Of a stretch of 38,479 nucleotides of DNA, positions 31,658-38,479 are shown one piece after another. Below the pieces are notes generated by a model. It saw nothing but the letters and a program-made list of their open reading frames with translations, was not told the DNA's origin and ran no database searches. The stretch covers positions 1 to 38,479 of the forward strand of contig JABDAL010000015.1 in assembly GCA_013289165.1 (NCBI GenBank). Direction: 5' to 3'. The stretch's first letter is position 1; every line of letters begins with the position of its first letter. A program made the position numbers and the translations under genes. Origin of the DNA: Bacteroidota bacterium (GTDB lineage Bacteria; Bacteroidota; Bacteroidia; JABEUT01).

Positions 31658-32086
31658 TTACTCGTCTATTTTTTTAACTCTTCCTGTATGCCTGCCTCCT
31701 TCAAAGTCTGTAGTAAAAAATACATCCACACATTTTTCTGCCTCTTTCTCATCCATAAAGCGGGCTGGTAAGGCAATAATGTTGGCATCGTTATGCTGGC
31801 GGGCTAATTTGGCAACCTCCTCATTCCAGCAGAGAGCTGAACGCACACCATGGTGCCTATTGGCTGCCATATTGACTCCGTTCCCGCTTCCGCATATAAG
31901 TACCCCCCTATCTGCTTCATTTGTTTCAACAGCCTTGGCAACCGGGTGGGCATAGTCAGGGTAATCGGCACGTTCTTCTGAATACGTCCCGAAATCTTTG
32001 ACATCAAAACCCTTATTCTGTAAATATACCTTAAGTGCCTCTTTAAGTGTAAAACCCACATGGTCACTGCCAATTGCTACCTTCAT
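31658..32086 (-). CDS. rpiB: Ribose-5-phosphate isomerase B
   Basis: The 142-residue protein matches RpiB end to end: MKVAIGSDHVGFTLKEAL at the N-terminus, ADYPDYAHPVAKAV, the catalytic Cys loop VLICGSGNGVNMAANRHHGVRSALCW, and ARQHNDANIIALPARF. Known reaction: interconversion of ribose 5-phosphate and ribulose 5-phosphate (some relatives use allose 6-phosphate). It is the first gene of a unit with lutB, 9 bp apart, and faces the long A+T-rich gap. Confidence 0.96.
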   Translation of the reverse strand: MKVAIGSDHVGFTLKEALKVYLQNKGFDVKDFGTYSEERADYPDYAHPVAKAVETNEADRGVLICGSGNGVNMAANRHHGVRSALCWNEEVAKLARQHNDANIIALPARFMDEKEAEKCVDVFFTTDFEGGRHTGRVKKIDE

Positions 32087-32112
32087 TATATATTAATGCT
32101 CTAATTGGAAAG

Positions 32113-32146
32113 CAAAGTTACATCTCCATTTTTTAATAAACGCAAA
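32113..32146 (-). promoter_or_regulatory. rpiB-lutB promoter (-33 TTTG, -7 TAACTTTG)
   Basis: On the minus strand TTTG (32143-32146) is followed after 22 bp by TAACTTTG (32113-32120), a full TAnnTTTG match, 26 bp before the rpiB ATG. Confidence 0.6.
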
Positions 32147-32182
32147 AAAAGAGAGCTTTCTGCATCTTTTATCAACTTTTAA

Positions 32183-32561
32183 TGTTAATAAGCACATTTT
32201 CTTTGTTATGTTTTTGTTCGTTTCTTTCTCTTATTGTCAATATCCCGTGACTTTGACAAAATTCTATTTACTTATCACCAATTATATTTTTTAATGAGTC
32301 CGCCATTAACATTTTTTCTCCTTTTTACACCTTCTTACTTACGAACAATTCGCATTGTTAATTCTATATTAACACTATGTTAATTAACTTGTATTTATCT
32401 ATCTTTCAATAACTTTAAGTCTAACTACATTTCATAATTTTGTTAATTCAAGTACACATTCTTTTCAACAATCGCAAATTCAAACATCTTATTAACCTAT
32501 TAACATACCTATACTATAACAACAATAGATTTTAAAAAAAGTATATGTTAATACTGTTAAT
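32183..32561. repeat. Array of nine TGTTAAT/ATTAACA 7-mers
   Basis: Plus-strand TGTTAAT occurs at 32183, 32356, 32378, 32441, 32546 and 32555. ATTAACA occurs at 32305, 32368 and 32499. Two further 6-mers ATTAAC lie at 32383 and 32491. Copies at 32356, 32368 and 32378 are about one helical turn apart and alternate in orientation, including the perfect palindrome GTTAATTAAC at 32379-32388. It could be a multi-site operator or origin-like iterons; the function is unknown. Confidence 0.6.
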
Positions 32562-32594
32562 GAATATGGAAAAAGCGATTATGGAAAAGATGAG

Positions 32595-32602
32595 TAATTT
32601 TG
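32595..32602 (+). promoter_or_regulatory. Promoter of the MORN-repeat operon, -7 element
   Basis: TAATTTTG is a full TAnnTTTG match, 52 bp before the ATG at 32655, and lies 33 bp after the last repeat of the 7-mer array. Confidence 0.45.
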
Positions 32603-32654
32603 TACCGTAAGATTTTAAAGATAAACTTTACGTGCTACAGACTGTCCATAGAAA

Positions 32655-34196
32655 ATGAAATTAAGTAAAAAAAATATATTAAAAGCGGTGATACTGTTTT
32701 GTACAGTAATCTGTTTGCCTTTGGTTTCCATTGCACAAGAAACCAAAGAAGGTTACAATAAATTGTATTATCCCAATGGGAAGATAGCCAGCGAAGGAAC
32801 TATCCGGAATGGGAAACCGGACGGCTACTGGAAAAATTATTATGAAAATGGTAAATTGAAATCCGAAGGAAACCGGAAAGATTTTAAGCTGGACAGTTTA
32901 TGGAAATTTTATACGGAGAAAGGATTACTTTATTTGATATATACTTACCAGGGAGGAAAGAAAACAGGCTTGAAGTATACCTACAAACCTTTATTGAAAG
33001 ATAGTTCAAAAGGGATGCTTGCATCAAAGGAGAATTATGTGAGTGATACTTTGCAGGGAGAAGCCTATTATTATGATGGGGGAAAATTATTTCAGATGAA
33101 GTTTTTTAAGGATGGGCTTGCCGAAGGAAAATCTTTGCAGTTTAATAAGGATTCATTAATTACCAGTATTATTATTTATAAAGGTGGATTCATCAAGAAG
33201 ATTATCAGGATAAACCAACTTAATACCGAAGGCCGTAAAGAAGGCTTATGGCAAACCTTTTTTGCTGATGGAACCGTTAAGTGGGAAGGCACTTATATTG
33301 ATGGTAAGCGGGAAGGTTATTTTAAAACATACAATGAAAAGGGTGAACTGCTCACAGTGGAAAAATATATAAATGATGTATTGCAATTAAATCCGCCGGA
33401 GTTGGCAAAGCTCGATATTAGGTCTGTTTATTATTCTAATGGAGTGGTTCAATCATCCGGCCCATATAAAGATGGTGTTCCTTTTGGTATGCACCGGATG
33501 TATGATACAACCGGGAAACCTGAAAAAGCTGATGTGTATGATAGCGGGAGAATTGTTGCTTCCGGTCCCATTGATGTAGCTGATGAACAGGAAGGACCCT
33601 GGAAAGAGTATTACGACAATGGACAGCTAAAGGCGGAAGGTGTTTATGCAAGTGGAGTGAAGGTTGGTGAATGGAAATATTATTTCAGGGACGGAAAGAA
33701 ATTTGAGTATGGGAAATATGATAAAAAAGGAAAACAGACCGGCAATTGGATGTGGTATTTTGAAGATGGAAATGTTCGCCGCGAAAGTAGCTTCAGCCAG
33801 GGACAGGAGGATGGGGATTTTATAGAATATAATGACTCGGGACAGGTAATTACTAAAGGGGAATATGCAGATGGCTTGAAAGAGGGAAAATGGGTTTACC
33901 AGCTGGGTAACTTCAAAAGTGTGGGTAAGTATACAGATGATTTGGAAGACAGCGTTTGGACCGAGTATTATGTTGATAATGGGAAAATGCGTTTTACCGG
34001 AAAGTATAACCAGGGCAGGCCCGATGGCGTACATATATGGTACTATAGTGATGGGAAAAAAGAATTGGAAGGGGTATATAACCTTGGCTTGAAACAAGAT
34101 AAGTGGAAGTATTATGATGAAGACGGAGTCTTGTTTCTCACTATTACATTCCGTGATGATGTGGAAACAAAATATGATGCTGTAAAGGCTCCGTAA
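32655..34196 (+). CDS. Secreted MORN_2-repeat protein (YwqK-like)
   Basis: The 513-residue protein has a signal peptide (ending LVSIAQ, about residue 28). Many repeats of about 23 residues follow, of the form YYxNGKLKxEGxYxxGxKxGxWKxY, for example YYPNGKIASEGTIRNGKPDGYWKNYYENGKL... and EYYDNGQLKAEGVYASGVKVGEWKYY. These are MORN_2 repeats. Databases often label such proteins 'YwqK antitoxin', but nothing here supports a toxin-antitoxin role. The aromatic/Gly hairpins suggest a periplasmic or surface beta-ribbon. Two bases separate it from the next gene. Confidence 0.9.
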   Translation: MKLSKKNILKAVILFCTVICLPLVSIAQETKEGYNKLYYPNGKIASEGTIRNGKPDGYWKNYYENGKLKSEGNRKDFKLDSLWKFYTEKGLLYLIYTYQGGKKTGLKYTYKPLLKDSSKGMLASKENYVSDTLQGEAYYYDGGKLFQMKFFKDGLAEGKSLQFNKDSLITSIIIYKGGFIKKIIRINQLNTEGRKEGLWQTFFADGTVKWEGTYIDGKREGYFKTYNEKGELLTVEKYINDVLQLNPPELAKLDIRSVYYSNGVVQSSGPYKDGVPFGMHRMYDTTGKPEKADVYDSGRIVASGPIDVADEQEGPWKEYYDNGQLKAEGVYASGVKVGEWKYYFRDGKKFEYGKYDKKGKQTGNWMWYFEDGNVRRESSFSQGQEDGDFIEYNDSGQVITKGEYADGLKEGKWVYQLGNFKSVGKYTDDLEDSVWTEYYVDNGKMRFTGKYNQGRPDGVHIWYYSDGKKELEGVYNLGLKQDKWKYYDEDGVLFLTITFRDDVETKYDAVKAP

Positions 34197-37006: not shown

Positions 37007-37022
37007 TGTTCCACGTGGAACT
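37007..37022. other. parS-like site 2
   Basis: TGTTCCACGTGGAACT holds a perfect 14-bp palindrome GTTCCACGTGGAAC and overlaps two bases of the mnmG stop codon. Its centre is 40 bp from site 1. With the flanking ATT/AAT, the two sites also form a 17-base inverted repeat (36968-36984 with 37005-37021, one T/C difference) around a 20-base loop. Confidence 0.78.
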
Positions 37023-38479
37023 ATCTTCCAATATGAACCATTAAAATGGAAATATCCGAAGGGTTTACTCCACTAATCCTCGATGCCTGCCCTAATGTTT
37101 TTGGCCTGAATTTGGATAATTTTTCCCGGGCTTCTATAGATAAAGAATTCAATTTATGGTAGTCAAAATTGTCATGTAGAATTAAATCATCCAGGCGGGA
37201 AACTTTGTCAGCCGTTTCCTGTTCCTTGATAATATATCCTGTATACTTCATTTGAATTTCGGCTTGTTCTATTGTCTCCTCCTCATACAATTCCAAGTGC
37301 GATTTTATAGTTTCAGAGCAATCTGCCAATCCACTTATAGTAGCATCAGGTCTTGATAAAATAGAATAGGCCTTCGTTTTTTGGCTAATTTCCATAGACT
37401 TGATTTCACTCAAAAATGGATTCACCTCTTCGGGTGAAATTGTAGTATCCTTAAAATATTTTATAAGCTCTTTGCTGTTTTTTATTTTCTCATTCACCCG
37501 GTCAAAACGTTCTTTTGATGCCAAACCAATTTCGTAGCTCATAGGGGTTAAACGGATGTCAGCATTATCCTGGCGGAGCAAAATTCTAAATTCCGCTCTC
37601 GAGGTAAACATCCTGTAAGGTTCTTCTGTACCTTTCGTTATAAGGTCATCAATTAGTACCCCAATATATGCTTGTGAGCGGGAAAGAATAAAAGGTTTCT
37701 TATTATAGACCTTTAAATGGGCGTTAATCCCAGCCATAATTCCCTGACAAGCAGCCTCTTCATAGCCTGTTGTGCCATTAATTTGCCCTGCAAAATAGAG
37801 GTTTTCAACCCGGCGTGTTTCCAATGTATTAGAGAGCTGATCGGGCGGGAAGTAATCATATTCTATAGCATACCCCGGCCGGAACATTTTAACGTGCTCT
37901 AATCCAATAATTCGTTTCAAAGCTGCGTATTGAACGTCTTCAGACAACGATGTGGAGAACCCGTTGAGGTAAACTTCCACCGTATCCCATCCTTCAGGTT
38001 CCACAAAAAGTTGGTGGCGTTCTTTATCGGCAAAACGATTTATCTTGTCTTCAATAGAGGGGCAATACCTCGGTCCTACTCCTTGTATTCTTCCTGCAAA
38101 CATGGGGGACTTTTCAAAACCCGTTTTTAATATTTCGTGAACCTCATCACTTGTATATGCGAGGTAACAGCTTCTTTGTTTTTTGAGTGGTTCAATTTCC
38201 TGCAGGTAAGAAAACTTTCCGGGCTTTTCATCTCCCTTCTGTTCTTCCAGTCTTGAATAATCTATCGAGCGGCCGTCAATACGCGGAGGGGTCCCGGTTT
38301 TCATTCTTCCACTCGTAAAGCCAAGTTGGATGAGCTGTTCTGTTATTCCTGTAGCAGCCCTCTCCCCTGCCCTGCCGCCTCCAAAATGTTTTTCCCCTAT
38401 ATGAATAAGTCCATTCAAAAAAGTGCCATTGGTAAGCACTACCGACTTGCATTTTATTTCCATCCCCAAGCCTGTAAGT
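37021..38479 (-). CDS. mnmG: tRNA uridine-5-carboxymethylaminomethyl(34) synthesis enzyme MnmG, N-terminus cut off by the window end
   Basis: The frame stays open to the window edge, giving about 485 C-terminal residues of a protein usually about 620 long. The part seen holds [16 protein letters not shown] of the FAD domain, [60 protein letters not shown], and the C-terminal helical domain ending in [19 protein letters not shown]. Known role: with MnmE, FAD-dependent installation of the cmnm5 group at wobble U34 of several tRNAs. The missing segment holds the N-terminal FAD-binding motif. mnmG (gidA) is classically placed near the chromosomal origin. Confidence 0.96.

Follow-up and report, generated by a model that had tools for sequence, protein, structure and literature searches.

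Intergenic array of repeated 7-mers

The AT-rich gap between the divergently transcribed rpiB gene and a gene encoding a MORN-repeat protein in a draft Bacteroidota genome contains nine copies of the 7-mer TGTTAAT/ATTAACA, which raises the question of whether this array is a chance cluster, an operator of the flanking genes, a set of iterons or an origin of replication. The gap is very probably the chromosomal oriC of the lineage, with the 7-mers forming the core of DnaA boxes whose consensus would be TTATNAACA instead of TTATNCACA. The relevant features of the window (the whole stretch of 38,479 nucleotides that was analysed) are as follows.

31658-32086, - strand: rpiB (PF02502), left neighbour
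32087-32654, no strand: proposed oriC, 568 bp of AT-rich sequence (GC 0.26) separating the divergent rpiB and MORN genes; orthologous gaps show a skew step after strand correction
32183-32191, + strand: box 1, TGTTAATAA (= TTATTAACA on the - strand); kept in six of seven congeners, TGTTTATAA in G007
32303-32311, - strand: box 2, core ATTAACA at 32305; GTTAACA or ATTAACA aligned in 7/7 congeners
32356-32362, + strand: box 3, TGTTAAT; retained in close congeners G002 and G005
32368-32374, - strand: box 4, ATTAACA, 12 bp from box 3; TAACA/GAACA variants there in 7/7 congeners
32378-32384, + strand: box 5, TGTTAAT, 10 bp from box 4; TGTTAAT or TGTTCAT in 7/7 congeners
32441-32447, + strand: box 6, TGTTAAT; TGTTNA in 7/7 congeners
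32497-32505, - strand: box 7, core ATTAACA at 32499, adjoining the AT-rich element; TTAACA or CTAACA in 7/7 congeners
32508-32537, no strand: AT-rich block CCTATACTATAACAACAATAGATTTTAAAA, candidate duplex-unwinding element, conserved in the genus
32517-32528: 3-nt periodic run TAACAACAATAG inside the AT-rich block
32546-32552, + strand: box 8, TGTTAAT; no conservation across the genus
32555-32561, + strand: box 9, TGTTAAT; TGTTCAT in G002, otherwise weakly conserved
32655-34196, + strand: MORN-repeat protein gene (PF07661), right neighbour; in several relatives nadA lies between the gap and this gene
37021-38469, - strand: mnmG/gidA, running off the window

An exact search returned all nine copies at the positions given by the initial annotation of this DNA, and the two additional ATTAAC 6-mers that it had mentioned are likewise present, as ATTAACT after 32378 and as ATTAACC after 32490. 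Its expectation of less than one copy was borne out by Markov models of order 1 and order 2 built from the gap itself, which predict means of 0.40 and 0.57 copies, respectively, in 568 bp; none of 20,000 simulated gaps reached nine copies, and the simulation maximum was five. Only scattered single copies had been noticed outside the array, and indeed the rest of the 38.5-kb window contains seven, at a density never exceeding one copy per 400 bp. Genome-wide, pairs of the 7-mer in the same orientation and at most 20 bp apart occur seven times in the 2.2-Mb draft, two of them in the gap, and five places have close inverted pairs, the rpiB/MORN gap being one of them. The genome-wide count of single TTATNAACA sites is not informative (178 matches versus 249 for a reversed control).

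A similar density of the 7-mer in other long intergenic regions, which the initial annotation had named as an observation that would speak against the array, was not found. Other AT-rich, ORF-free gaps of at least 300 bp at related loci (n = 52) contain 50 core motifs versus 39.7 expected (ratio 1.26), whereas AT-rich rpiB gaps (n = 64), chosen without regard to the motif, contain 349 versus 76.3 expected (ratio 4.58). Thus, a dense cluster of a conserved, non-palindromic 9-mer resembling the DnaA box is present at this gap, and the other gaps are not enriched. Chance clustering in AT-rich intergenic DNA would be favoured by the base composition of the 7-mer itself and of the gap (74% A+T), but its probability is negligible in view of the simulations, the difference between these two ratios, and the conserved register of the boxes among congeners.

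Conservation of the array and its neighbours

Orthologous gaps in relatives were located via rpiB. Seven congeners, whose RpiB is 72-82% identical, retain the array mostly in the same register: their boxes lie at about +95, +220, +275 to +297, +355 and +415 relative to the start of rpiB, whereas the intervening sequence has diverged. The gene to the right of the gap is not constant: nadA lies there, or between the gap and the MORN gene, in congeners G003, G004, G006 and G008, and is absent from that place in the genome of the window (G000), G002 and G005, and a response-regulator gene lies to the right in G227. All of these genomes have the array despite the changing right-hand gene, indicating that it is not part of one right-hand operon.

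The initial annotation had offered as one alternative a complex operator through which rpiB-lutB and the MORN operon would be controlled. The location in a divergent promoter region, the spacing of some sites by one helical turn, and the presence of the motif upstream of HU and purH genes as well are all features that an operator might have. However, the persistence of the array beside a MORN gene, nadA or a response-regulator gene, depending on the genome, disfavours this explanation, which also does not predict the skew step of origin polarity that is found on both gene strands and is limited to array loci (see below); it is largely refuted and is considered very improbable. Iterons in the plasmid sense are likewise not indicated, as no Rep gene was seen near the gap (its neighbours are rpiB, lutB, the MORN gene and mnmG) and the sites lie at irregular intervals on both strands rather than as regular direct repeats. 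The mnmG (gidA) gene is a classical origin-proximal marker, and it is at most four ORFs from the gap in G030, G200, G222 and G054, making five genomes with mnmG nearby when that of the window is included.

Replication-strand asymmetry

A GC-skew minimum, which the initial annotation had proposed to look for on the chromosome, falls at the gap in the raw skew of the window, but this minimum is partly attributable to divergent transcription, which alone would yield a minimum at the gap. Raw skew was therefore rejected as sole evidence, and third-codon-position GC skew, written on the top strand, was calculated for the genes of each strand separately. At 50 array loci (rpiB gap of at least 300 bp with at least four core motifs, picked by motif and not by skew), the right-minus-left difference was +0.125 for genes on the + strand (37 of 46 loci positive, p = 2.9e-6) and +0.114 for genes on the - strand (27 of 37 positive, p = 1.3e-4). 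No skew step was found at 46 control loci where rpiB lacks the gap and the motif (-0.005 for + genes, p = 0.57; -0.022 for - genes, p = 0.51). A change from negative to positive skew is the polarity of an origin of replication.

The same change is seen over longer distances. In a sister genus (G060:C1, 786 kb, 20 sampled places), mean skew is -0.096 to the left of the gap and +0.086 to the right, with the sign flipping between 20 kb before and 20 kb after it; in another family (G128:C1, 1.84 Mb), the values are -0.074 and +0.112, and the change falls within about 20-40 kb of the gap. The 74-kb contig of congener G008 has the same sign pattern, and in the species of the window, for which the 38-kb window alone was used, + genes give -0.140 to the left and +0.127 to the right; whole-chromosome skew cannot be drawn for this species because the draft is 70% complete and in 116 contigs. 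Single 20-kb loci are noisy, and the local strand-corrected skew gives no clear step in congener G005, nor in G051 and G013. The closed genome of a relative, G050, was set aside as a proof by skew: no array is close to its rpiB, and its sampled skew changes sign more than once.

Consensus of the boxes

The 65 orthologous rpiB-upstream gaps of at least 300 bp across Bacteroidia were subjected to a de novo k-mer count with no preset motif. The top 7-mer was ATTAACA/TGTTAAT (177 observed versus 29 expected, present in 57 of the 65 gaps), TATTAACA, TATCAACA and TATGAACA were among the top 8-mers, and the 9-mers TTATTAACA, TTATCAACA, TTATGAACA and TTATAAACA were enriched 5- to 19-fold. Since all four of these 9-mers are enriched, position 5 is free, as it is in TTATNCACA. 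The pooled consensus is TTATNAACA, in which positions 1 to 4 are A or T, mostly T, A, and T, and positions 5 to 9 are any base, A (then C), A, C, and A (then G or C).

The DnaA box of E. coli is TTATNCACA (PMC5742627). The initial annotation had described one copy of the repeat as differing from the DnaA box at a single position, and this holds for the consensus: TTATNAACA agrees with TTATNCACA at eight of nine positions, including the free fifth, and differs by the change of C6 to A. The orthologous rpiB gaps contain 98 matches to TTATNAACA versus 21 to TTATNCACA, and a cluster of canonical boxes is absent from the 568-bp gap of the window, in which there is no AT.CACA core. One- or two-base variants of the box that are specific to a lineage have likewise been described in H. 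pylori (TCATTCACA), Caulobacter (TGATCCACA) and actinobacteria (TTGTCCACA), but these, like all the 9-mer variants tabulated in PMC4285127 (Table 1), keep CACA at positions 6-9, whereas TTATNAACA differs by changing position 6. The proposal that the array resembles a replication origin with DnaA-like boxes is thus upheld by its conservation, by the skew step at 50 loci with null controls, and by this consensus. The ArcA-type sites of E. coli (GTTAATTAA-like) resemble the repeat in their letters but, unlike the present array, are direct repeats of fixed spacing in promoters with no link to origins.

The motif at other loci

A direct pair of TTATNAACA sites (TTATTAACAAAACACCCCATTTATCAACA), about 20 bp apart from start to start, was found upstream of the HU gene and is conserved in several families; it lies at G000:C58:11396-11424 in the genome of the window, and downstream of fmt in many genomes. 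A DnaA-regulated HU promoter is a possibility. A similar pair is located upstream of purH in one genome (G030:C6:30055-30082). The dnaA promoter was searched as a second site of the motif, and none was found there; two copies of TGTTAAT are present 160-190 bp downstream of the dnaA stop codon (G000:C8:34413-34439) in the genome of the window, but not in congeners.

The occurrence of the same motif pair upstream of the HU gene makes it possible that a protein other than DnaA binds at both places. The gap would still be the origin, but the protein recognizing TTATNAACA there and at certain promoters would be a regulator or a nucleoid protein, and DnaA would use degenerate sites. Such a protein would account for the conserved pair at HU in several families and the one at purH; on the other hand, the identity of the consensus with the DnaA box at all but one position, its free position in the same place, and the fact that canonical boxes are not the abundant motif of these gaps argue against it. 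DnaA is a known transcription regulator, and the promoter sites are therefore compatible with DnaA boxes. We regard another binding protein as unlikely, and DnaA as the probable ligand of the array.

AT-rich element and predicted initiation

The AT-richest 50 bp of the gap (32512-32561, AT 0.84) are at its right end, and in 27 of 51 related loci the AT-richest 60 bp likewise fall in the last (right-hand) fifth of the gap. In a DnaA-trio, 3'-[G/A]A[T/A]-5' triplets follow a GC cluster and extend away from a DnaA box. Runs of at least four [TC]A[AG] triplets on the + strand, which is that of the right-hand gene, were found in 16 of 51 gaps, most of them towards the right end, against 4.0 expected; the run at 32517-32528 in the window is of this periodic kind. 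They resemble a DnaA-trio, but their polarity relative to the adjacent conserved box 7 is opposite to that in B. subtilis; the runs may be part of the leader of the right-hand gene instead.

If the gap is an origin, DnaA would assemble cooperatively on boxes 1-7, which occur on either strand and some of which are spaced by one helical turn; the AT-rich block at about 32508-32540, at the right end, would melt; and helicase would be loaded at this block, after which forks would depart both ways.

Comparison with known origins

The origins of E. coli and B. subtilis (PMC5742627, PMC4285127) similarly contain about nine non-palindromic 9-bp sites in both orientations by an AT-rich element; position 5 of the box is free in both cases, and mnmG/gidA is nearby as in origins of the E. 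coli type. The gap differs from them in carrying A rather than C at position 6 of the box, in the lack of a clear DnaA-trio of the usual polarity beside a box, and in not being adjacent to dnaA, which is on another contig (G000:C8); a long distance between oriC and dnaA is common in Bacteroidetes (PMC4755523). By function the gap would be classified as oriC-like, departing from that class only in lacking canonical boxes, with putative binding by DnaA. The place of the origin beside rpiB is already known as a prediction: Ori-Finder placed the origin adjacent to rpiB, and likewise away from dnaA, in six of seven Tenacibaculum chromosomes (PMC9864904). That paper presents a tool prediction, with no description of a box motif in the text consulted, whereas the present analysis shows the motif, the strand asymmetry and the conservation of the motif in many families.

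The origins of Bacteroidota are poorly studied, and tools of the Ori-Finder type default to the E. coli box and to dnaA as a marker, both of which fail here. The motif TTATNAACA and its place in the rpiB gap make origin annotation possible in draft genomes of many uncultured Bacteroidota.

DnaA protein and box type

The N-terminus of the DnaA recognition helix is GGKDHATVLHA in the genome of the window versus GGRDHTTVLHA in E. coli (alignment to the domain IV structure 1j1v), so that domain IV carries the changes Arg432 to Lys and Thr435 to Ala. The recognition helix reads the TnCACA part of the box, and the substitution T435M is defective in box binding (PMC5742627). Residues 435 and 438-439 have been proposed as determinants of species specificity, which box variants are proposed to follow in epsilonproteobacteria (PMC5043019). 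The change of C6 to A in the box may accordingly be matched by that of Thr435 to Ala (and Arg432 to Lys) in the protein.

Every typed genome with the array in the rpiB gap encodes GGKDHATVLHA. The same helix is encoded by G025, G131 and G213, which have no array at rpiB, implying that the origin is elsewhere in these genomes or has changed. In four genomes with Ser or Thr at position 435 (G050, G105, G263 and G168), rpiB has neither the long gap nor the cores; in G031 (GGKDHST) the gap is present, with one AT.AACA core versus 1.0 expected and three AT.CACA cores versus 0.3. Family f53, whose rpiB gaps fall outside the gap comparison, has RDHAT, i.e. Ala435 with Arg432. Close direct pairs of canonical TTATNCACA were found in 3 of 19 Ala-type and 10 of 15 Ser/Thr-type genomes (Fisher p = 0.004), counts that ignore shared ancestry and type labels that come from a limited sample.

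We lean slightly towards the view that part of the Bacteroidia has switched initiator specificity, DnaA with Lys432/Ala435 reading TTATNAACA and Ser/Thr435 lineages keeping TTATNCACA, both the origin boxes and those upstream of HU having changed along with the protein. Neither the box variant TTATNAACA nor its covariation with DnaA seems to have been described in the literature searched, which excluded most subscription journals and the DoriC tables; a search for TTATTAACA as a DnaA box returned no match except an unrelated paper on Mycoplasma hominis. If binding by DnaA is confirmed, this would be a natural pair of protein change and site change in the most conserved initiator-origin recognition of bacteria, testable by two point mutations and short oligonucleotides (TTATTAACA versus TTATCCACA).

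Clusters of canonical boxes were noted upstream of nadA in G050 (G050:C1:11561-12411) and G142 (G142:C1:2665940), both of which have GG-RDHST with Ser435, and are candidate origins there. Since many Ala-type genomes have nadA beside the variant array as well, canonical and variant sites are suggested to occupy the same ancestral place. Five canonical TTATNCACA boxes are also present within 170 bp of intergenic sequence in the closed genome G216 (G216:C1:1941001-1941168), a candidate origin or DnaA-titrating site.
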